Assembly (NCBI GenBank): GCA_022561385.1
Contig: JADFRG010000013.1
Span: 1 to 64,000, forward strand
Reading direction: 5' to 3'
Source of the DNA: Chloroflexota bacterium
GTDB taxonomy: Bacteria > Chloroflexota > Anaerolineae > Anaerolineales > E44-bin32
DNA: 64,000 bases
The translations under genes were made by a program, and so were the position numbers. Below the pieces are notes generated by a model. That model had not been told where the DNA came from and did not search any database. It worked only from the letters and a program-made list of their open reading frames with translations. This document shows positions 23,846 to 64,000 of the stretch, piece after piece (within the stretch, counting starts at the first letter, position 1; every line of letters begins with the position of its first letter).

Positions 23846-25732
23846 CTAAGTCAGGAGAGCGTAGACGCGGTGGTCATTGGAGCCGAAGTAGATCCGATTA
23901 TCGCTCACCGTCGGCGTACCGGTTAGGGGGCCGCCGGTTTGAAATTGCCATCTCTTGCGCCCGGAACGCATGTCCAGGCAGTACATAGATCCGTCCACCG
24001 AGCCGCAGAAGAGCGAGTCTTCAAAAATGGTCGGCGAGCCAGTCACCTGGTGCTCGGTCTGGAAGTGCCAGATCTCGCGACCGCCCTTCGAGTCGATGGC
24101 GTATATCCGCCCATCGGCGCATCCGGTGTAGATGCGACCCTCTGAGAATACCGGGGAAGATATGGTGGGACGACCCATTCGAAACTTCCAAATTTGCCAG
24201 CCGGCTTCCGCTTCCAAGGCGTAAAGCGACCAGTCCATGCTGCCGAAATAGAGCATACCTTCGATTAGGATCGGCGTGGAAGTGATGCCGCGTCTCGCCT
24301 TTCCGAAACGCCATTTCAATTCGCCCCGAAAGTCGTAGCAGTAAAAGTCGCTGCTCTCGCAGCCGAAATACACTCGATCGTCGACAATCAAGGGAGTTGA
24401 GCGAATGGGCCCCGCCACTTCTTGCTTCCAGGCCGCGGAGCCATTAAACATGTTGACGACGTGGAGCCGAGCATCGTCGGCGCCAACAAAGATGTGGCCC
24501 TCCGACACCACGGGTGAGGAACGTATCGGGCCACCCGCATAGTAGGTCCACGCCAGGGTGCCTTTGTCTGCCGAGAGAGCGTACATACGGGCGTCCTCCG
24601 AGGCTACAAAGACCAGCTCACCGTCCGAAGCCGGTGTACTCGCTATCCCACCTTCGGTGGCGAATTTCCAGATGAAATCTCCCGTTTTTGCATCCAGCGC
24701 ATAGATATTATTGTCGTAGCACCCAACGTAAACCACGCCATCCACCACGAGCGGCGAGCCCCGCACCTCGTCCTCACACTCAAAGGACCAGACTTCCTGA
24801 ATCTCGTTCCGCGGCTGACCGGCGGATGCAGCTGTTCGAGGCGAGACCAGGATCCCGGTCTCCTGGGCCAGCGCCATCAACGAGGTTCGCATGGCCTCCG
24901 CGGTGGGGAACCGGTCCGCAGGATCGTAGGATAACGCGGCGTTGATGGTTGCTTCCAGTTCCGGGGAGACGTTCTCGTTGATATCCCGGATCGGCCGTTC
25001 GGAGAACGAAAAGGGCGGCTCAGCGCGCGGATCGCGGCGGGTCAGCAAATGGTGGAGTGTGGCACCCAGTGCATACATGTCGCCGGGGGGAGAAGCCTCG
25101 CCTCGGTACTGCTCGGGCGGGGCGTACCCGTCCGTACCGATCATGGTGCCCTTCTGCCCGGGTTGAAAAATCCGCGCGATTCCGAAATCGATCAACCGAA
25201 TGCTGTCGTAACCATCCACCATGATGTTGGAGGGTTTTACATCGCGGAAGATCACAGGCTGCGGTTTGTGGTGGTGTAGGTAGTCCAGCACGTCACACAG
25301 CTCAATAGCCCACTTCACAACCTGGTCTTCGGGCAGGAAGTCATCCGACTCTTGAAGCACCGCCTCCAGGTCCTTACCGTCGATGAATTCCATAACCAGA
25401 TACGAGCTGCTCTCATGTGTGAAGTAGTCGTAGATTCTAGGAATAGCGGGATGCGAAAGCGTGGCCAGCAGATCGGCTTCTCGTTCGAAATTTCGGATAA
25501 TCATCTCATGCATGGAGGGATCGGTGGCCATATTGATCATCTCTTTGACGGCCACGGTTTTTGTGACGTTGGGGAAGTGCAAATCTCGTGCCCGATACAC
25601 GGAGCTCATCCCCCCCGCGCCATGTAATGCAAGCACGAGGTACCGATCCTGTAAGGTAACCCCGGGCTCTAATTGGCCGAGTTGGGAGGTCTCAGTGGTG
25701 ATGTCACCGAGCGCTTTTGTAATCCTCTTCAT
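23846..25732 (-). CDS. Ser/Thr protein kinase with PQQ-type beta-propeller
   Basis: A 628-aa protein. The kinase domain (about 30-295) has a glycine loop GAGGMSSVY, ATP lysine K63, catalytic loop FRDVKPSN (162-169, Phe in place of the usual His), DFG in LIDFGIAR and APPEQ. Residues about 320-628 are seven or more PQQ-like beta-propeller blades, each with a GxVYVG or YxLD pattern, alternating strands ending in tryptophan. No membrane segment separates the two, so the propeller is predicted to be cytoplasmic, probably a sensor or docking platform. It leads the signalling operon. Confidence 0.94.
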   Translation of the reverse strand: MKRITKALGDITTETSQLGQLEPGVTLQDRYLVLALHGAGGMSSVYRARDLHFPNVTKTVAVKEMINMATDPSMHEMIIRNFEREADLLATLSHPAIPRIYDYFTHESSSYLVMEFIDGKDLEAVLQESDDFLPEDQVVKWAIELCDVLDYLHHHKPQPVIFRDVKPSNIMVDGYDSIRLIDFGIARIFQPGQKGTMIGTDGYAPPEQYRGEASPPGDMYALGATLHHLLTRRDPRAEPPFSFSERPIRDINENVSPELEATINAALSYDPADRFPTAEAMRTSLMALAQETGILVSPRTAASAGQPRNEIQEVWSFECEDEVRGSPLVVDGVVYVGCYDNNIYALDAKTGDFIWKFATEGGIASTPASDGELVFVASEDARMYALSADKGTLAWTYYAGGPIRSSPVVSEGHIFVGADDARLHVVNMFNGSAAWKQEVAGPIRSTPLIVDDRVYFGCESSDFYCYDFRGELKWRFGKARRGITSTPILIEGMLYFGSMDWSLYALEAEAGWQIWKFRMGRPTISSPVFSEGRIYTGCADGRIYAIDSKGGREIWHFQTEHQVTGSPTIFEDSLFCGSVDGSMYCLDMRSGRKRWQFQTGGPLTGTPTVSDNRIYFGSNDHRVYALLT

Positions 25733-49109: not shown

Positions 49110-49334
49110 TCACCTCGAGGTGCTCATGCGTATGACATCACCTTCAGCGTTGGCGACCACCCGTACGATTCTCTTCATGGTTTTTCCCTCCGGCAATTTC
49201 GCGGCGCCTTTGAAGATTATTTGATAACGTTCGCTGCCACCTTTTTCCGCCTTGACCGCGGGCCGCACCCCATCCAATTCAGGAAACTGGCGTACCACAG
49301 CCCGTGTGACCTTCTCCACCGCTTCCTTCTTCAC
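49110..49334 (-). CDS. Small basic protein of unknown function downstream of ftsZ
   Basis: A 74-aa basic protein that overlaps the ftsZ stop by 4 nt. It has a helix (EAVEKVTRAVVRQFPELDG) then three strands (RYQIIFKGAA, KRIVRVVANAEG, VIRMSTSR), a compact alpha-beta layout. No family recognised. Position argues for a function with FtsZ or in the envelope. Confidence 0.68.
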   Translation of the reverse strand: MKKEAVEKVTRAVVRQFPELDGVRPAVKAEKGGSERYQIIFKGAAKLPEGKTMKRIVRVVANAEGDVIRMSTSR

Positions 49335-50473
49335 GTTCGAGCTGCCTGCTCGCTCGGGAGGCTGGGGGAGCTCCTCCGACGCAGGAACGCGGGCACATCC
49401 AGGTCATCCATGTCGAATCTCAGTGAGGGGGCAGCGGTGGGTTTTTCCAATTTCACTTCCTGCACCGGCTGGCCGCCAACCCCGGTCACGATCAATATCA
49501 CCTGCACCCGACCGCGCATGGCCGGCTCAGTGGTTACACCCATAATAACTTCCGCATCTGGCGGCATGTTACCGCGCAGTGCCTCCACTGCACTCCCGAC
49601 CTCGACGAGGCTCAGATCTTCACCGCCGGTGAAATGTACCAGCGCGCCCGATGCCTGACCCAGGCTGTCAATTTCCAGCAGTGGGTGATGGAGTGCCTGC
49701 CGGACCGCGATCTCCGCTTTGTCGGCGCCTTCCCCAATTCCGATCGCCATTAGGGCCCCGCCGCCCTTGCGCATGATCGCGCGCACATGCGCAAAATCGA
49801 CGTTGATCAGCCCCGGCTTGTTGACCATTTCGACGATACCTTGTATGCCCTGGCGTAATACATCGTCGGCGAATCGAAAAGCTATTTCGAGGCTGGCCTC
49901 TCGGGGAACCACCTGTAGGAGGCGGTCGTTAGGGACGGTGATCAAGGTATGTGTATGCGGTTGTAACCGCCGGACCCCTTCGGTGGCATTCTTGGCCCGT
50001 TTGCTCATTTCAAATGAGAAGGGCATGGTCACCGTGGCAATTACTAATGCGCCTGTTTCGCGCGCGATTGCCGCCGCGATCGGCGAAGCCCCGGTGCCGG
50101 TCCCACCGCCCATGCCGGCCGCCAGGAAAATCATATCCGCGCCTGAGAGTGCTTCGGCCAGCTCGCGACTGCTTTCGATTGCGGCCGCAGCACCTACCTT
50201 TGGATCGCCTCCCGCTCCCAGGCCGCGCGTCACGCCGGGCCCTAGTTGGATCCGGGTGGGGGCCAGGCTCGACTCGAGCGCCTGATGGTCTGTATTGGCG
50301 GCAATAAACTCTGCCCCGATCAATCCCAGTTCGACCATCCGATTGACGGCGTTTGACCCTCCACCGCCAAGCCCAAGCACTTTGATGCGCGCCTCACCGA
50401 ATTCCTTTATGGCCGATTCCACCGCGCCTTCGGCTTGGGGCCCGCTCTGAAAAATATCTACATGTCCTGTCAT
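49331..50473 (-). CDS. ftsZ: Cell division protein FtsZ
   Basis: A 380-aa tubulin homologue. GTP-binding loops VLGLGGGGSNAVNRM and the tubulin signature GGGTGTG are intact; the synergy loop reads NKPGLINVDFAHV and supplies the catalytic acidic residue on the next subunit. The C-terminal tail keeps a DVPAFLRRR peptide, which normally binds FtsA/ZipA/SepF. No ftsA or other division gene is adjacent. Instead it is coupled by 4-nt overlaps to a TIM-barrel-like protein before it and a small protein after it. Confidence 0.96.
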   Translation of the reverse strand: MTGHVDIFQSGPQAEGAVESAIKEFGEARIKVLGLGGGGSNAVNRMVELGLIGAEFIAANTDHQALESSLAPTRIQLGPGVTRGLGAGGDPKVGAAAAIESSRELAEALSGADMIFLAAGMGGGTGTGASPIAAAIARETGALVIATVTMPFSFEMSKRAKNATEGVRRLQPHTHTLITVPNDRLLQVVPREASLEIAFRFADDVLRQGIQGIVEMVNKPGLINVDFAHVRAIMRKGGGALMAIGIGEGADKAEIAVRQALHHPLLEIDSLGQASGALVHFTGGEDLSLVEVGSAVEALRGNMPPDAEVIMGVTTEPAMRGRVQVILIVTGVGGQPVQEVKLEKPTAAPSLRFDMDDLDVPAFLRRRSSPSLPSEQAART

Positions 50474-51705
50474 TTTCCGTCCCTGTAAGTTGCTTTCCAG
50501 GCCGCCGCAATAATCTGCCCGGGGCCCTTCACTCGGGTGACATCACAGCCGGCCTCCAAGAGTCGCCGCTCGACCGAAGGAGGAATTGCGGCTTCGTCGC
50601 CCAGGATGGTCACTCGGTCGGCCTGCAGCGCCTCTTTGGTTGAGAATCCGATCACGCCATCCTTAATCAGCGTTTTGACCGTTGCCCATGTGTCCTCCGA
50701 CACCGGCCCGTCGGGAAGCAGCACGAAGTGGTCCAGAGCCTTGCCGGTCGATCTTGAGCCGGACAACCCACCCGCATCAAGGAGGCGTTTAGCCGACCCA
50801 ACGATGGGTCTGGGCTCGGAGGGGGAGGCAAACCACGCGGACTCGAAATCCGGACTGCCCGGGCTCGCGGACAACAGGTAGAAATTAAAACCCAGCACCG
50901 ATTGGGGAAGCTGCCCGGACTGCACCGCGCGCAAGATGCTTGCGATTTCGCCATTTCCGTCTTCCACGGTGCTGGGCGGCCCCCCCGCCACGACGATCAT
51001 GGGCAATGTTTTGCCCATCACCGCCTCGGTGGTAGCCGCATACCAGTCAAAGGTGCGAAAGCCGATCTGGTCCTGGGAACCATCGGGGGTGTTGTAGGGC
51101 CGGCTGGATGCCCATTCTTCCGGCCCGCCATAGCCCCATTCGAGTGGCTTGCCAAAGGTGCGGGCGAAGATGGCTAAATGCAGGTCGTCAAGCAGGCTCC
51201 GGTGGCCGCGACGAAGCATGGACTTCAGTGCAGTCTCCAGAAATGCGGTGTCCCAATAGTCGCCCCCCGGCTCGAGTGGGGGAAATACCGGGTGCATTCC
51301 AGTGGCGCGTTGGAGCTGTAATATGGGGAGCATCCGGTCGACAAATCGCTCCACCAGCCCCGGACGCGCCCATTCGTCTGACGGCCACATGGACCGCAGA
51401 TTCGGACGATCGAATACGACGACCTCGCGCACACCCCACTCCCCATAATTGGCGAGCGCGGGCGAGATCTGGTCGGAGGCTACCTCGTCCACTCGTCCCT
51501 TGATCCATACCACCGGCCGAATTCCAGCTTCAATCAACCCTCTTAGGAACGGCTGCGGGATCAGGCGGTTTGGCGTGGCGTGAAGCACCAGCCAATTGGC
51601 CGACAAACGCAAAAGCGTCGGGAGCCACTCTTCCAGGTCTTTCTCCGTATAGTGGCTATCGTCGGGAAAATAGTGAAAGCCGAGGCGAGAAATGGGTGCG
51701 CTCAT
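50470..51705 (-). CDS. TIM-barrel-like protein, glycosidase-like, unknown function
   Basis: A 411-aa cytosolic protein (no signal seen). Alternating beta/alpha segments start with LGFHYFPDDSHYTEKDLEEW and LSANWLVLHATPNRLIPQPFLRGL, a pattern typical of (beta/alpha)8 glycoside-hydrolase-like barrels; further strands are RPVVWIKGRVDE, REVVVFDRPN, PMIVVAGGPPS and VLGFNFYLLSA. No clear catalytic Glu pair. It shares a 4-nt overlap with ftsZ. It lies just downstream of a sigma-54-like promoter. A predicted enzyme in the ftsZ unit is odd, and I cannot assign a substrate. Confidence 0.7.
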   Translation of the reverse strand: MSAPISRLGFHYFPDDSHYTEKDLEEWLPTLLRLSANWLVLHATPNRLIPQPFLRGLIEAGIRPVVWIKGRVDEVASDQISPALANYGEWGVREVVVFDRPNLRSMWPSDEWARPGLVERFVDRMLPILQLQRATGMHPVFPPLEPGGDYWDTAFLETALKSMLRRGHRSLLDDLHLAIFARTFGKPLEWGYGGPEEWASSRPYNTPDGSQDQIGFRTFDWYAATTEAVMGKTLPMIVVAGGPPSTVEDGNGEIASILRAVQSGQLPQSVLGFNFYLLSASPGSPDFESAWFASPSEPRPIVGSAKRLLDAGGLSGSRSTGKALDHFVLLPDGPVSEDTWATVKTLIKDGVIGFSTKEALQADRVTILGDEAAIPPSVERRLLEAGCDVTRVKGPGQIIAAAWKATYRDGK

Positions 51706-51719
51706 AGTGCCCTTATCCG

Positions 51720-51736
51720 TGCAAGGTTCGTGCCGC
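51720..51736 (-). promoter_or_regulatory. Putative sigma-54 promoter for TIM-barrel/ftsZ unit
   Basis: Minus strand reads CGGCACG-AACC-TTGCA, matching the consensus TGGCACG-N4-TTGCA except the first base; GG and GC are 10 nt apart as required. It lies in the 36-bp gap after the protease gene. The start predicted from it is about 51710, leaving only a few bases of leader before the ATG at 51705, which is a caveat. Confidence 0.6.
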
Positions 51737-51741
51737 GCTTG

Positions 51742-54276
51742 TTATCTGGAGACGGCCAGTTTGATCACCTTGCCCGAGGGGTCAAGGGTCATCCTGGCGA
51801 AGTGAGGATGCAGTATCGATCCCTCGCTCACGTGTTTCGAGAGGGTCACGACCAGGGCTTCATTTTCGCCGGCGGTTTTCATTCCTATCTGCTGACTCGG
51901 GCAGCAGTGGTCCTCGCTATCGCACCCATGATGTTGGTTGTGTAGGCTGCAGTCCGCGTCCGTCATGGTGGGCAGATATTGAGCGACGATGGACTGCACC
52001 CGATCGCTGATCGAAGAGTAGGCATCATCCGTCAGCAGGTCTGGCCCTCCAAGTGCGCATGCGGTTTTGATCGTGGCCGGCCGCTTGGAACTGCGAGTCA
52101 CTGCCTTGCTGCCCATCGGTCGACCGGTCAAGCGCGAGGTGAGAAGCGGATCGCCGTACAGCACAAACGAGATCAGCGTTTTCTGGTCTTCGCCATCCAA
52201 ATATCCCTGACGCTCAAACATTTCCGTTGCGAGCTTAAACTTGGCCAGCCGCAGCGCTTCACCTACGGGAACCGCCGTCCGCAGCTCCTCCCAGAATAAG
52301 CGGCCCAACAGATCCGCGGCAATCAGGGGAGGAGTCACCGAGCCGTATGAGATCATTGTTGATCCGATCACGGCCTGGCTTCCGCTCGACAGAAACTTCA
52401 GGCTCAGGGCGGTCTCCTCCGTTTTGCCAATCACGTGCGCTCCGTAACAAGCCTCGGTGAACACGATCCTCGGAGCCCGCCCGCTGTTGACTACATCTTT
52501 CGGTCGAAGCGCTATCGGAAACTCCACCGAATCCGAAGGATCCCTCAGCGGATCTCGCTGCCCGTACCATTCAGGAGTGTCCTGCAAACCGTGCAGGTTG
52601 AAATACGAAAGCCGGCTGGGACGACTCGCCACCGACGGCATGTTGTCGGCCGCACTGGGCGGGGAGGTGATCAAGGAGCGCGGGGCACCGATGGCTCCAA
52701 ATACCGACAAGGAAGCCTTGCGCCAGATGCTGGCGGTGTATCCGATCGCCTTGGGCTGCGGACGGAAGAGTCGTACGAATCGATCTCCGGCCCAGATCCT
52801 GAAACGCCTGGGGCCGGATCTTGACCGCCGCTGCTCACGGTGGGCAGCGGTGGCATTGCTCAGCAGCTTGACCAGAAGATCGGTATCGGAGTCAATGGGC
52901 AACCGGCCGACCGGCCATTGGGGGGCGAAGTAATTCTCATCGGTCGCGGCGTAAGGATTGTCCGAGGGCACCGAATCATCGTCGTCGTCGGTTGGATTGG
53001 GCAGCAGATGGAAGGGGACGATGTTGTGGCCCCCGACGATCAGAAGCGCTCCGATCATCTCACCCCGTTCAGCCAGCGCCTGGTCAAGATCCGCCAGACG
53101 TAACTTGATTTGCCAGGCATTTCCTGGATCGCAGGGCATTAGGCCGAAGGGTTGCAGGGAGCGCGGGTCGTCCATATAGATGCGATAGGCTCCCCATCCG
53201 TTCTTGCGCCGCACGACCTCAACCAGATTCATGATGGCTTCGTTCACGCGTTTGAACCCGGAGGGTCCAATTTGCTGCACGAGTCGGGTGTGGCTGCTCA
53301 GCACGATGTAAACCGGTAGCCGGGCCTCCTGATCTTCCGATGGACGGCGGACATTGAGGCGCTGCGCCAATCGATCAAACTCATTACGCACCGAAAGCAG
53401 CGCTTCATCGGGATCGGAATGTTCGTCGGAACGCGGCCCCTGGAAGGCCTCCCCTGGTTCCGGATCCGGCATTGGAGAAGGGTCTGACGGCGGAGACTTC
53501 GCGGACGCTCCCATCACCGCCAGAACATCCTCCGGCACAGGCCGGCTGATCCGCGCCTGCATGTGAACGGGCCAGAGCGCTCGATATGCGTGATCGAGAC
53601 CCAGCACGGTCTCGGTGATGACACCCAGGGGGTCAGCCGCCGCGACCTGGTGCATTCGCTCAACGCCTGCCGCCGGCCGATCAGAGTCGAGTTGAGCTTC
53701 GGCAAGTACCAGTTTGAACGCAACACAGTGCGGCCAGCGATCGTGGCCCGCCTCCGCCAGGCGGACGGCTTCTTGCGTCGCGCCGGTTGCAAGGCTGGCT
53801 CTAACGGCAACTAGAGCAGGCAGCGCAAAGCTGGGATCCGCCGCCAGAGCCTCATTGGATGCGCGCAATGCCTCCGCTGGATCATTGGCCTCTAATGCCC
53901 GATACGCCCTGGCCAGAGCCACCGCCCAGGAGGGAGAGCTGGAGGCGTTGGGCTGTTCGCCGGCGAGAGCCTTGGCGCAGGCCATGTAAACCGGTATCCG
54001 CAGACTGTCACCAGTTTGTTTATAGGCCTCAGCCAGCATCTCGTAGGCAGGTCGACTTTCTGGGTCGACTTCTATTAATAGTGACAACCGGTCGATAGCC
54101 GAACTCGCCGCTCCTGATTTGAGCTCGACCGTAGCCAGCTGGAGCGCAACCTCCGTATCACCCGGCCACGTAGCCAGCCACTCGATGGCCAGGTTGCGAG
54201 CGTAATCGAGCCGACCCGCAACTTGCGCCGCATGAAGCGTGCTCACGACGGTCTCACGGTCCATTGTTTTAGCCAT
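51742..54276 (-). CDS. TPR protein with C25/caspase-like protease domain
   Basis: An 844-aa cytoplasmic protein. Residues 1-230 are TPR-like helical pairs; about 240-320 is a Pro/Asp/Ser-rich linker. From about 320 to 715 is a caspase-fold region related to peptidase C25 (gingipain)/CHAT: SDNPYAATDENYFA ... WPVGRLP (438-460), LLIVGGHN strand, the catalytic-type histidine H562 in FNLHGLQD, cysteine C610 in FTEACYGAHV, and the LYGDPLL motif (706-712). The C-terminal 70 residues contain a Cys/His cluster (C776, H779, H782, H783, C785, H790, C791, C792). It overlaps the 1654-aa TPR gene by 8 nt. Protease activity is inferred from the dyad. Confidence 0.87.
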   Translation of the reverse strand: MAKTMDRETVVSTLHAAQVAGRLDYARNLAIEWLATWPGDTEVALQLATVELKSGAASSAIDRLSLLIEVDPESRPAYEMLAEAYKQTGDSLRIPVYMACAKALAGEQPNASSSPSWAVALARAYRALEANDPAEALRASNEALAADPSFALPALVAVRASLATGATQEAVRLAEAGHDRWPHCVAFKLVLAEAQLDSDRPAAGVERMHQVAAADPLGVITETVLGLDHAYRALWPVHMQARISRPVPEDVLAVMGASAKSPPSDPSPMPDPEPGEAFQGPRSDEHSDPDEALLSVRNEFDRLAQRLNVRRPSEDQEARLPVYIVLSSHTRLVQQIGPSGFKRVNEAIMNLVEVVRRKNGWGAYRIYMDDPRSLQPFGLMPCDPGNAWQIKLRLADLDQALAERGEMIGALLIVGGHNIVPFHLLPNPTDDDDDSVPSDNPYAATDENYFAPQWPVGRLPIDSDTDLLVKLLSNATAAHREQRRSRSGPRRFRIWAGDRFVRLFRPQPKAIGYTASIWRKASLSVFGAIGAPRSLITSPPSAADNMPSVASRPSRLSYFNLHGLQDTPEWYGQRDPLRDPSDSVEFPIALRPKDVVNSGRAPRIVFTEACYGAHVIGKTEETALSLKFLSSGSQAVIGSTMISYGSVTPPLIAADLLGRLFWEELRTAVPVGEALRLAKFKLATEMFERQGYLDGEDQKTLISFVLYGDPLLTSRLTGRPMGSKAVTRSSKRPATIKTACALGGPDLLTDDAYSSISDRVQSIVAQYLPTMTDADCSLHNQHHGCDSEDHCCPSQQIGMKTAGENEALVVTLSKHVSEGSILHPHFARMTLDPSGKVIKLAVSR

Positions 54277-59245: not shown

Positions 59246-59575
59246 CTAGAGAACTTGGATCTGTTCGACGACCCAGTAGGAGGCTGCGATCATTCCAATG
59301 CCCACCAGGATCAGAAACAATCCCGCCCCACTGGCGGTTTTCACCAGCGAGTTCAGCGCGCCGACCAGCTCCGAAGCGCTGTTGACCAGGCCGGTGATCT
59401 CATCTGCCATCCCTTTGCGTCCCAGGCGGGCCGATTGGGTGGCCAGGGCTCGAATTTCCTTGGAATAGCCTCGACTCACCAACACCAATATCCCGAGCAC
59501 CACACACATGCAGCCCAGAATAAATGCCGTTGCGCCGATGACCATTTGCATATCAATTATGGATAAGGGGATCAT
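59246..59575 (-). CDS. Small membrane protein of the sigma-54 operon
   Basis: A 109-aa protein with two membrane helices (about residues 8-33 and 84-104) and a 50-residue basic/amphipathic middle region (YSKEIRALATQSARLGRKG and VNSASELVGALNSLVK). No family recognised. A GGAGG ribosome site lies 5 nt before the ATG, and a consensus sigma-54 promoter is 36 bp upstream. As first gene of the unit it may tether the TPR scaffold and protease to the membrane. Confidence 0.78.
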   Translation of the reverse strand: MIPLSIIDMQMVIGATAFILGCMCVVLGILVLVSRGYSKEIRALATQSARLGRKGMADEITGLVNSASELVGALNSLVKTASGAGLFLILVGIGMIAASYWVVEQIQVL

Positions 59576-59610
59576 GTCTGCCTCCAGTAATGGGATCTGA
59601 AGGCATCAGG

Positions 59611-59627
59611 TGCAATGATCGTGCCAA
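59611..59627 (-). promoter_or_regulatory. Sigma-54 (-24/-12) promoter, consensus match
   Basis: Minus strand TTGGCACGATCATTGCA matches YTGGCACGRNNNTTGCW at every defined position. The start of transcription would fall near 59600, about 25 nt before the ATG at 59575, with GGAGG in the leader. It is encoded about 3 kb from rpoN and 80 bp from the sigma-54 activator gene. Confidence 0.87.
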
Positions 59628-59685
59628 GCCCGATCATCGTGCCGTGCTCGATCATCATGCCATGCAGGATCATCGTGCGATGCAC
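59614..59685. repeat. 18-bp tandem repeat overlapping the sigma-54 promoter
   Basis: Four 18-bp units at 59614-59631, 59632-59649, 59650-59667 and 59668-59685 share GATCATCGTGCC-like cores. On the minus strand each carries a GGCACGATGATC-like version of the -24 element; only the last unit (the one nearest the gene) also has a -12 element. Possible enhancer, decoy or promoter-evolution array. Confidence 0.8.
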
Positions 59686-59706
59686 GGTGTCCGGCCGGCC
59701 TCTAAA

Positions 59707-60885
59707 CTAAGATGAAATTAGGGACTGAAATTCAGGGGAGAGGTGGCCGAGGTCGATTTCTTCATCATCACAAAACAACATGGCGCGCTCAATGACGTGG
59801 CGCAGCTCTCGCATGTTGCCGGGCCAGTCATGAGCTTTCAGAGCTTCGATGGCTCGCGGCGTGATGTCGGTCACCGGATTACCGGTCCGCAGGCTCTCCT
59901 GGCGGATAAAGGATCCGACCAGAGCGGGAACGTCCGCCATACGCTCGCGCAAGGGCGGGAGGTGGAGATCGACAACTTTCAACCGGTAATAAAGATCCTC
60001 CCGAAAGCTGCCGTCTTTCATCATGGCTAGAAGGTCCCGGTTAGAGGCCGCAATGATCTGAACGTCGACGATGATCTCGTGTATCCCTCCAACCCGCCGG
60101 AATTTCCGTTCATCCAGCACCCGCAACAACTTGGCCTGCATATCGGTCTTGGTGGAGGATATTTCGTCCAGGAACAGGATCCCGCCGTCGGCGACCTCCA
60201 TCAGACCGGGTTTGCGCTTCGTGGCACCGGTGAAGGCGCCCGCCTCATGCCCAAAGAGCTCAGATTCGATCATTGTGTCCGGGAGCGCGGCGCAGTTGAT
60301 GGGCACAAAGGGTTTATCCGCACGCGGCCCGGCCATGCGGATCACATTGGCGATAATCTCTTTGCCGGTCCCGGTCTCACCAGTAATGAGCACCGAAACT
60401 GAGGCGGCGGCGGCGCGCTCGGCCTCGTCGGCGATGCGGGCCATCTCGGGCGTGTCTCCCACGATCCACTCATATTGGTCCTGGGAGGATTTTCTCAACA
60501 GCGCCAGTTCACGTCGTAATGAGACGACTTCGCTCGCGCGCTCGACCGCGCTGATTAACCGTTCCAAATCCAAGGGCTTTTGGAGGAAGTCCTGGGCTCC
60601 CTGCTTCATGGCCTCCACCGCGATGTCGACCTCTCCGAATGCCGTAATGAGAATCACGGGGGGACTGGGGTTCTCTCGCTCGATCTGCTCCAGCAGGGAT
60701 AGTCCCGATCCATCCGGCAGCACCACGTCCAAAAGGACGATATCCGCCGCGCCGGTCTTGATCGCCTGCCGCGCGGCGGCCAAATCTCCGGCCTCGATCG
60801 CCTCGTAGCCGGCGTCGCTTAACGCGCCGTGCACAAAGCTTCGGGCTGTTTCTTCGTCGTCAACGATGAGAACAGTTGAGCTCAT
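59707..60885 (-). CDS. NtrC-like sigma-54 activator lacking the DNA-binding domain
   Basis: A 392-aa enhancer-binding protein. The receiver domain (about 4-115) has D9/D10 and phospho-acceptor D53 in LLDVVLP. The AAA+ domain (about 140-375) has Walker A GETGTGKE, the sigma-54 contact motif GAFTGA, Walker B ILFLDEIS and REDLYYRL. The protein stops at LGHLSPEFQSLISS, just after the AAA+ domain, so the Fis-type HTH found in nearly all relatives is absent. Examples without an HTH are known (FlgR of Helicobacter, CtcC of Chlamydia) and act from solution. It overlaps the kinase gene by 4 nt. Confidence 0.94.
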   Translation of the reverse strand: MSSTVLIVDDEETARSFVHGALSDAGYEAIEAGDLAAARQAIKTGAADIVLLDVVLPDGSGLSLLEQIERENPSPPVILITAFGEVDIAVEAMKQGAQDFLQKPLDLERLISAVERASEVVSLRRELALLRKSSQDQYEWIVGDTPEMARIADEAERAAAASVSVLITGETGTGKEIIANVIRMAGPRADKPFVPINCAALPDTMIESELFGHEAGAFTGATKRKPGLMEVADGGILFLDEISSTKTDMQAKLLRVLDERKFRRVGGIHEIIVDVQIIAASNRDLLAMMKDGSFREDLYYRLKVVDLHLPPLRERMADVPALVGSFIRQESLRTGNPVTDITPRAIEALKAHDWPGNMRELRHVIERAMLFCDDEEIDLGHLSPEFQSLISS

Positions 60886-62816
60886 TTGGATTTAGCGATC
60901 GGAAGCTCGAGGGTGAAAACCGTTCCCGCATCCTGAAAGCTCTCCACCCGGATATTCCCCTTGTGCGCGTTCAAAATGCGCCGGCTGATTGCCAGGCCAA
61001 GTCCGGTTCCGGACTTCTTCGTGGAGAAAAACGGATCGAACACCCGATCGATCAGGTCCTGTTGGATGCCCGGCCCGGTATCTGCGAATTTGAGCTCCAC
61101 GCCTTCAGGTCCGTTAGGAGAGATGTTCACCGACAGAGTGCCTCCCTCCGGCATCGCCTGGATGGCGTTGGTCAAGAGATTGATGATGACCTGCTCCAGG
61201 GTCCGCTCGTCGGCGAGGACAGGCGGCAGCTGGGGCGAATAGTTTTTATGGGTTCGGACCTTGGCTTGCCTGAAACGCGGCTCCCAGCGCGTAAGGATGC
61301 GATCCAGGAACCTGGCGAGATCCAATGGCACAAATTTTAATTCGAGCGGGCGCGCGAAGAAGAGAACGTCTTCCATCAGCTGATCCAGGCGGCCGCATTC
61401 GCTGCGAACTTTCTCTATCGATTGATATTGGGGATGGTCCTTCCCCAACCGCGAAGCCACAAGCTGAAGCCCGGTGCTGATATTGTTGATGGGATTGCGC
61501 ACTTCGTGGGCAAAAATTGCGGCCACTTCTCCCAGCAGGGCGCGTTGAGCCAGCGTCTCAGTCTGGTCCTCGATGGCCTTCTGCTCCGATTGGTCGCTGA
61601 GCACGAGCACGACGCGTGTCGGCGCGGGATCCTCCTGGGGGACTGCCCTCATATTCACGGGGAAAGGTGTGCCATCACGCCGATGAAGCGTCATGTGAGC
61701 TCGATCTGCCTGGCGCTGGTGGCCTAACACGTCCAACAGCGTGGTCATGAGGTCCGAAGGGCCTACCAAAACATCTTGAATTTCCATGCCGATCAGCTGG
61801 TCGTCCGGGTAACCCAACATCAACGAGGCGGCCTGATTGGCCCGCAGAACCCGCAGCTTCGAGTCCAAAGTTAAGACGGCGTCATTTACGGCCTGGAAGT
61901 GGAGCTCCTGTTCCTTCTTGGTACGATCCAGGGATTCGTCCAACTGGGTCACAACCTCACGCTGCATATTCATCAAGATGCGGGCATGACATAAATTGGC
62001 CAGTATCTCCATAATGCCGATGGCATCCGATGGAACGTCCTGCAGCTCTCGCCATCCGACGACAAGTAGCCCCACCCAGGCGCTCTCGGTCCCTAGCGGA
62101 GAAGTGCGCAGCGCCTTTAGCCCGAGCGAGCGGGCCGCCCGCTGGAGCGGATGATCCGGCCGGGTGCCGATGGCCCACTGACTTGGCCGATCCAGAGGGT
62201 CGAGGTCGGTGGAGGGCAGGGAGTCGGGAAAACCATCCGGCAGGTGACCCTCCAGCTCGTATTCCGGGCCGGCCGCCGATACGCGGTAGACGCCGACCGC
62301 GGCTGCCGAGAGCAGTTCGCCTGAAAATCGGATGATATCGGAGAGCGCAGTGGGTGTAGATTCGAGCAGTAGCTCCGAAATCTTGATCAGCGTAGCCAGC
62401 TGCTCTTTTTCGGAGAGCGATCGCTGCTCGTCGCGTAAGCGGTCGGAGGTCGCCGTGACCAGCAGCAAGACTGCCTGAGTAGGGCTGCCCACCGGGTAGG
62501 CCCGAATATCCACTAACAGCTGCTCGCCGTCCCGGGTGACGGCCGGTACGGCCTCGATGTTGCCCTCGGTCGAAGCTTTTGCGCGAGCCAACGCCACCAC
62601 ACCTTCGTCGCCATAAAAGAAGTCGGGCGGCGAAATGGCTTCGAGTTCGTTGCGCGTAAAACCGCTCAGGAGCAGGAAGGAGTGGTTAGCGGCAAGAATG
62701 GTCCGTGCTTCACTGTCGATAACCAGGACCGCCTCACTGAGCGAATCAGCGAGTGCGGCAAATAGTTCTCTATGGGGTTGAGGTCTCAGCAGTCTGGTAA
62801 GTGGGTTCGTTGGCAA
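60882..62816 (-). CDS. NtrB-like PAS/GAF histidine kinase
   Basis: A 644-aa soluble kinase. PAS (about 20-125), a GAF-like segment (about 145-290), PAS (about 305-410), HisKA with the phospho-acceptor in AIFAHEVRNPINNIS and HATPase_c with NLLTNAIQAMPEGG, DTGPGIQ and GTGLGLAISRRIL. The HisKA/HATPase pair is of the NtrB type that partners NtrC regulators. Start is a TTG at 62816 with a GGAAAGG site, 12 nt after rpoN. The gene overlap with the activator makes them a cognate pair. Confidence 0.94.
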   Translation of the reverse strand: MPTNPLTRLLRPQPHRELFAALADSLSEAVLVIDSEARTILAANHSFLLLSGFTRNELEAISPPDFFYGDEGVVALARAKASTEGNIEAVPAVTRDGEQLLVDIRAYPVGSPTQAVLLLVTATSDRLRDEQRSLSEKEQLATLIKISELLLESTPTALSDIIRFSGELLSAAAVGVYRVSAAGPEYELEGHLPDGFPDSLPSTDLDPLDRPSQWAIGTRPDHPLQRAARSLGLKALRTSPLGTESAWVGLLVVGWRELQDVPSDAIGIMEILANLCHARILMNMQREVVTQLDESLDRTKKEQELHFQAVNDAVLTLDSKLRVLRANQAASLMLGYPDDQLIGMEIQDVLVGPSDLMTTLLDVLGHQRQADRAHMTLHRRDGTPFPVNMRAVPQEDPAPTRVVLVLSDQSEQKAIEDQTETLAQRALLGEVAAIFAHEVRNPINNISTGLQLVASRLGKDHPQYQSIEKVRSECGRLDQLMEDVLFFARPLELKFVPLDLARFLDRILTRWEPRFRQAKVRTHKNYSPQLPPVLADERTLEQVIINLLTNAIQAMPEGGTLSVNISPNGPEGVELKFADTGPGIQQDLIDRVFDPFFSTKKSGTGLGLAISRRILNAHKGNIRVESFQDAGTVFTLELPIAKSK

Positions 62817-62828
62817 GCGTTACCTTTC

Positions 62829-64000
62829 CTAGGCTGGGGCCGCCTGCGCTTTTCGCAGCCGGGCGGGGAGGATTCCCTCGATCGTCCGATACTTCGCCAC
62901 CGTTCGTCGCGCGATCTTGACCCCCTGTCGGCGAAGGGCGGCCGCGATTTGGTCATCCGTCAGCGGTTTCATCTCGGATTTCACAATTTCCTTAATTCGA
63001 TCTCGAACCGAAAGGCTCCGATCGAAGAACTTCGCCAGCGGGATAATCCGGCCATCCGGCAGGGCCATTCCCTTATTGGATACTGCGCGCGAGACGGTGG
63101 ACTCATGCACCCCGAGCCGATCGGCTAATTTGGCACGCGTCATGGGTCGCAGGTGCCGGTCTCCATTCAGGATGAAATCGCGTTGCGTCTGCACCAAGTC
63201 CTTCATCAGCCTGCGCATAGTATTGTTGCGCTGTTGTAAACATTTGACAAATAGGGCCGCGCGCTCCAAATGCTTCTTCCACTCTTCAGAATGGTTTTCG
63301 TCGGCCTGGGCGAGTGCGCTGCGGAAATGGGGGTTGACCCGGAGCCAGCCCGGCATGGAGGAAAATATCTCGACCACGAGCGGACCTTCCGATCGCCGCG
63401 TGATCTGGATATCCGGGGTGTGGTAGACGTTGGGATCCGCGCTAGCGGGTGTACGTCCGGATCCCCAGAATGAGCGGGCGGGGTAGGGATTCAGCTTTTC
63501 TTGAATAAAGGTCGCCGCCGTTCGAACCTTAGCCACAGCCACGTCGAGATCGTTTGCGATGTTATCGAATTCGCGTCGCGCGAGTCGTTCAAATTCCGAT
63601 TGCAGAATCTGGCGTGAGAGGATCACCTTCGGATCATCCGCGCGGAGAAGATCCAGCTGCACCAGCAGGGCCGCGCGCGGTCCAGAAGTGCCCAACCCGG
63701 CAGGGTCAACGTGCGCAATCATATCGACGACACCTTTGACGCGCTCGAGCGAAACCCGGAGTTCGCGTGCCACGAGTGCCGGCGCGTCGGGCAAGAATCC
63801 GTCGTCGTCGAGACTGGACAATATATAAGCGGCGATCGGCCGGTCTTCCACGTCCAACTCGGCCGCCAGCTGCTCGAGCACATAAACCGCAAGGTTCTCG
63901 GGCGCGGCCGGCTCAAGATCCTCCTTCTCGTCTTCATAACGAGGGGTTCCGCCTCCGTCTCGGGGAGAGATGAAAACTACCGAATCCTCGTTGGCCTGCG
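62829..64000 (-). CDS. rpoN: RNA polymerase sigma-54 factor, truncated by window edge
   Basis: The frame remains open through base 64000, so the N-terminus is outside. The visible part has the core-binding domain with DRPIAAYILSSLDDDGFLPD, the winged-helix/HTH region KLADRLGVHESTVSRAVSNKGM, and the RpoN box ARRTVAKYR that contacts the -24 element. It directs RNA polymerase to -24/-12 promoters and needs an AAA+ activator. Upstream of the usual GTG-like M at 63881 the frame reads an acidic N-terminal linker, as expected. First gene of the sigma-54 cluster. Confidence 0.94.
   Translation of the reverse strand, partial: QANEDSVVFISPRDGGGTPRYEDEKEDLEPAAPENLAVYVLEQLAAELDVEDRPIAAYILSSLDDDGFLPDAPALVARELRVSLERVKGVVDMIAHVDPAGLGTSGPRAALLVQLDLLRADDPKVILSRQILQSEFERLARREFDNIANDLDVAVAKVRTAATFIQEKLNPYPARSFWGSGRTPASADPNVYHTPDIQITRRSEGPLVVEIFSSMPGWLRVNPHFRSALAQADENHSEEWKKHLERAALFVKCLQQRNNTMRRLMKDLVQTQRDFILNGDRHLRPMTRAKLADRLGVHESTVSRAVSNKGMALPDGRIIPLAKFFDRSLSVRDRIKEIVKSEMKPLTDDQIAAALRRQGVKIARRTVAKYRTIEGILPARLRKAQAAPA

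Follow-up and report, generated by a model that had tools for sequence, protein, structure and literature searches.

Conserved sigma-54-type sites suggest that sigma-54 switches on cell-division genes in Anaerolineales

Does a sigma-54 promoter precede an ftsZ gene in the Anaerolineales, and would it place cell division under a factor that is usually seen as serving nitrogen, motility or envelope functions and is absolutely dependent on an ATP-driven activator? The question arises from a short intergenic stretch in the window, the 64,000 nucleotides analyzed here, which belong to contig C15 of a 2.9-Mb genome (G000) whose close relatives are Anaerolineales/Anaerolineae MAGs of the Chloroflexota. 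An earlier note had placed a sigma-54-like promoter at 51720-51736, ahead of a TIM-barrel gene and ftsZ. The sequence is present, but that span overshoots by one base; the site covers 51735..51720 (Table 1). It occupies a gap of 36 nt between the TAA stop codon of the C25/TPR gene at 51742 and the ATG of the TIM gene at 51705. GG at -24, GC at -12 and the fixed spacing of sigma-54 promoters are all found, with one mismatch (T to C) relative to TGGCACG-N4-TTGCW. The 4-nt overlap between TIM and ftsZ was also described correctly: ATGA serves as stop codon of the former and start codon of the latter.

Table 1. Genes and sigma-54-type sites of the locus and of the dcw cluster (window coordinates unless a contig or locus is named)
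Feature	Position	Strand	Remarks
ftsZ2, divergent FtsZ paralog	49331..50473	minus	T7-loop NVDFAH
TIM-barrel protein, 411 aa	50470..51705	minus	glycoside-hydrolase-like fold predicted by AlphaFold2/Foldseek
Candidate sigma-54-type -24/-12 promoter of TIM/ftsZ2 unit	51735..51720	minus	CGGCACGAACCTTGCA; predicted start ~51709
TPR + Peptidase_C25 protein	51742..54276	minus	
TPR protein, 1654 aa	54269..59233	minus	
p109, small conserved protein	59246..59575	minus	two hydrophobic stretches
Perfect sigma-54-type putative promoter	59611..59626	minus	TGGCACGATCATTGCA; ahead of p109-TPR-C25
NtrC-type response regulator	59707..60885	minus	receiver + AAA+ (GAFTGA), no DNA-binding domain
PAS histidine kinase (HK)	60882..62816	minus	
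rpoN (sigma-54)	62829..64000	minus	5' end outside window, ~C15:64214-64229
Site upstream of rpoN	C15:64251-64266		
Sigma-54-type site between rsmH and ftsL-ftsI	L194:2622-2637 = G000:C11:5121-5136		

A lone match of this kind in the window is weak evidence, because consensus matches with at most one mismatch show no excess over the control: the whole genome holds 28, and a reversed-pattern control 31. A narrower lineage pattern, YGGCAYNNNNYTTGCA, gave 6 matches in the 2.9-Mb genome and none in the reversed control, versus ~3.5 expected genome-wide under a first-order Markov model; within the 36-nt C25-TIM gap alone, ~1e-5 matches are expected. Several matches were set aside. Those at window positions 25578 and 32473 lie inside ORFs, a perfect site at C11:14204 lies inside murG and was taken as chance, and the TGGCAT[CT][GA]A[CG]CTTGCA matches seen in many genomes were read from their letters as a coding stretch of the Gly-Ile-(Asp/Asn)-Leu-Ala type.

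Conservation gave a much clearer picture. We called a site wherever the score exceeded 12.5 bits with a matrix that is our own version of the published sigma-54 consensus and was not fitted. Among Anaerolineae relatives, 78 of 87 distinct 150-nt regions upstream of the TIM gene carry the site, compared with 0/87 for the reversed matrix. The same holds for the upstream regions of rpoN (27/27) and of p109, the first gene of the p109-TPR-C25 unit (16/21), while non-target upstreams were nearly devoid of it (ntrC, 1/26; HK, 0/17; C25, 0/23; plsX, 0/11; fabF, 0/8). The reversed matrix found nothing in the TIM, rpoN and p109 upstreams together (0/135); rows inside one family are kin, so that all these counts are not independent. 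Spacing is fixed: GGCAY-N5-TTGCW occurs in 120 of 136 upstreams, and any other spacer (0 to 12) in no more than three. At TIM sites the flanks hold ~0 bits of information and most columns of the -24/-12 blocks 1-2 bits, the latter being partly inflated because the sites were picked by score. Likewise, across 61 genomes TGGCAYNNNNCTTGCA occurs several times per genome, whereas its reversed control yields few matches. Although one-mismatch matches are not enriched across the genome, as a chance resemblance to the consensus would have it, conservation among relatives rules chance out for the window site, and we regard that explanation as extremely improbable.

The gene behind the site encodes a protein that belongs to no family in Pfam or NCBIfam and lacks a convincing relative by sequence among PDB entries. 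Its AlphaFold2 model (pLDDT 89) was matched by Foldseek best to PslG (2.2e-07) and also to GH26/GH128 hydrolases, with modest TM values of at most 0.49 by query; a role in envelope sugars would be a guess from this model. The C25-TIM pair also occurs in other Chloroflexota lineages (G063, G122, G146 and G177; L285-L288). On these stretches no ftsZ2 match was found nearby and no strong sigma-54 site before TIM. Hence TIM alone does not imply sigma-54 control, and the pair appears, from these gene arrangements, to be older than the link to ftsZ2.

The ftsZ gene of the window is a member of its family, with Tubulin/FtsZ GTPase and FtsZ_C domains, a GGGTGTG loop and a TIGR00065 score of 375.7 bits (cut-off 295.2). 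We rejected the assumption that it is the only ftsZ of the genome, since a canonical gene exists elsewhere. Indeed, most sampled genomes have two FtsZ genes; FtsZ_C scores are ~1e-34 for the canonical copy and ~1e-24 for the TIM-adjacent one, and a tree of 63 sequences, some on long branches, separates canonical FtsZ from FtsZ2 at 100/100 support. The catalytic NxDxxD T7 loop typical of GTP-hydrolyzing FtsZ is absent from the window protein. The loop's second acidic residue is Asp in 31/31 canonical sequences; of 78 FtsZ2 proteins, 68 have His at this position, 6 have Asn and 4 have Asp, and the window protein has His. We take this position to be D212 of E. coli FtsZ, whose replacement should impair GTP hydrolysis. 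A segment of the window protein, DLDVPAFLRRR, resembles the tail of canonical FtsZ, and its retention suggests that a membrane anchor may be common to both FtsZs. By sequence family the window protein is thus an FtsZ, yet a non-canonical paralog.

rpoN, the HK and the activator gene adjoin TIM-ftsZ2 in many families, as a common neighborhood with two gene orders, which bears out the earlier proposal that TIM/ftsZ is tied to the same module. The activator has a sigma-54 interaction AAA+ domain (PF00158, E 4.2e-66) with the GAFTGA motif. No HTH match was found in it, no C-terminal Fis-type DNA-binding domain is present, and the protein stops just past the AAA+ lid in 26/26 homologs. A strong PF00158 activator is usually present once per genome. 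Chlamydia trachomatis CtcC, also of the NtrC type, likewise combines a receiver with an AAA+ domain and lacks a DNA-binding domain (PMC7482065). By its domain content, the window activator is predicted to work like CtcC and, strictly, lies outside the enhancer-binding members of the NtrC family. Ahead of the perfect p109 site, a 20-nt unit containing GGCACGATGATC is repeated imperfectly about four times (window positions 59605-59690); the regions upstream of p109 in the sister species and three other relatives showed no such repeats.

Absence of the sigma factor goes with absence of its putative targets, with the reservation that MAGs may be incomplete. rpoN was undetectable in four members of the order (G030, G036, G043 and G049), where the TIM gene is absent too; three of them have canonical FtsZ only, while neither copy was found in G043. 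Likewise, 11 near-complete genomes of family f11 in the phylum sample showed no credible RpoN and no TIM.

The canonical dcw cluster has a conserved site of its own, between rsmH and ftsL-ftsI. We confirmed the ftsI transpeptidase by Pfam in the genome of the window and assigned ftsL from position and size only; where both are on one contig, ~16 kb separate the rsmH-ftsL junction from the canonical ftsZ downstream. Of 52 genomes in which rpoN was detected, 49 carry the site at this junction, versus 0/4 without rpoN (L219 and L283, which are one genome, were counted once), a difference with Fisher p ~1e-4 when kinship is ignored. One further genome, G055, has the site with rpoN not found and is counted beside the 49/52. 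The three rpoN-bearing genomes that lack the site (G027, G041 and G054) all belong to family f2, which still has the site ahead of TIM; in G029, TIM and FtsZ2 are absent although rpoN and the ftsL site are present. The links between rpoN, sites and genes are therefore not absolute. The earlier note held that division, if the promoter were real, would be partly under sigma-54 control: the conserved sites do argue for a promoter at ftsZ, but that ftsZ is the second, divergent paralog. With a site in the dcw cluster, the link to division is wider than the note proposed.

The regulon was sampled by pattern searches only, and these turned up other conserved sites. Two related genomes have one ahead of a gene for an M23 peptidase (L204:2764-2779 and L205:2902-2917, minus strand); in four genomes (L206-L209), another separates a MutL/GlmL-like ATPase gene from a gene for a ~360-aa RnfC-barrel-like protein. 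The genome of the window and its sister G001 also have sites before a receiver-only regulator and before a PD40-repeat protein.

What is the conserved motif? Since RpoN binding here is predicted from sequence alone, it could be the binding site of another regulator that merely resembles a -24/-12 element. We consider this very unlikely: two blocks with an exact spacer fit a sigma-54 element, the motif stands before rpoN in every upstream scored, and it is missing at rsmH-ftsL from all four rpoN-less members of the order. A different doubt concerns the window's genus, where the promoter might be a relic and TIM-ftsZ2 might be transcribed only via read-through from the p109 promoter. The C25-TIM gap is short enough that read-through from the upstream C25 gene may occur, and the predicted leader measures only ~4 nt in G000 and G001, versus ~20 nt in most family members, so the earlier caveat about a leader of a few bases was justified. 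With a start at ~51709, the AAGGG at 51714-51710 falls outside the predicted TIM transcript; the sister has no Shine-Dalgarno ahead of TIM, and in both genomes TIM translation would have to be near-leaderless. However, the G000 site (CGGCACGAACCTTGCA) and the G001 site (CGGCACGATCCTTGCA) are at equal distance from the ATG though the intervening bases differ, which suggests selection on promoter and spacing; a relic is thus unlikely. The predicted sigma-54 promoter ahead of TIM/ftsZ is strongly supported by conservation throughout the order, by the exact spacer and by joint loss with rpoN. We conclude that the window site is very probably a working promoter of TIM-ftsZ2, one of several driven by a small dedicated circuit.

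In this circuit, the PAS histidine kinase would phosphorylate the NtrC-type AAA+ activator, which has no DNA-binding domain and would therefore reach any closed complex of sigma-54 directly from solution. Such an activator cannot use enhancers to tell promoters apart, and every sigma-54 promoter would thus switch at the same time: those of rpoN, p109-TPR-C25, TIM-ftsZ2 and ftsL-ftsI, with the dcw genes behind the last. The site at rpoN itself would add positive feedback. FtsZ2 would enter the Z ring via its conserved C-terminal peptide, with GTP hydrolysis probably weakened. The distribution of sites suggests that sigma-54 switches on cell-division genes in Anaerolineales. Whether it is the division sigma factor of the order, with one kinase/activator pair lacking enhancer specificity that gates the dcw cluster, a hydrolysis-altered FtsZ2 and rpoN as a positively fed-back switch, we can say only tentatively, and would put the chances just short of even. 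The promoter may also be real but accessory, serving septum or envelope modification by TIM and FtsZ2, while housekeeping promoters drive division with a small boost from the rsmH-ftsL site. A canonical ftsZ elsewhere in the genome, rpoN-less members that keep rsmH-ftsL without the site and are presumably viable, and family f2, with rpoN and no ftsL site, all fit such a role, which we judge a real possibility, if somewhat below an even chance. Against it, an ftsL site retained in nearly all rpoN-bearing genomes and across many families would be unlikely for a negligible promoter.

The closest parallel to the proposed circuit is CtcB-CtcC of Chlamydia, where an activator without a DNA-binding domain also serves a single sigma-54. 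The targets differ. In Chlamydia they are, by the title of PMC7482065, membrane reorganization and type III effectors when cells convert to the infectious form; here they are division genes plus rpoN. Sigma-54 has been tied to envelope and peptidoglycan genes and was noted in some Chloroflexi (Francke et al., 2011, PMC3162934); in that study the division category (COG D) showed no over-representation and ftsZ goes unmentioned, whereas division genes are central here. By its title, a study of Caulobacter found the factor to be required for cells to divide normally (Brun and Shapiro, 1992), and rpoN has been reported as essential in Geobacter and Myxococcus, the former case being ascribed to metabolism (cited in PMC2725144). 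Unlike here, the accessible texts on these three describe no sigma-54 promoter ahead of ftsL or ftsZ. A second FtsZ beside the canonical one recalls archaeal FtsZ1/FtsZ2, which, with CetZ, are among the known FtsZ duplications (PMC9871819). The accessible part of that review mentions no Chloroflexota FtsZ paralog, and neither the Asp-to-His change in the T7 loop nor the sigma-54 linkage found here is among its duplications. Within the open-access literature (subscription papers and preprints being outside its scope), we found no report of sigma-54 control of division in Anaerolineae and, in the accessible texts, none of sigma-54 promoters on ftsZ.

If the circuit operates as proposed, core division genes, together with a second FtsZ, would be under a signal-gated, low-leak switch in a group of abundant, little-studied bacteria. 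rpoN would then be expected to be hard to delete, and depletion of RpoN to change septation.
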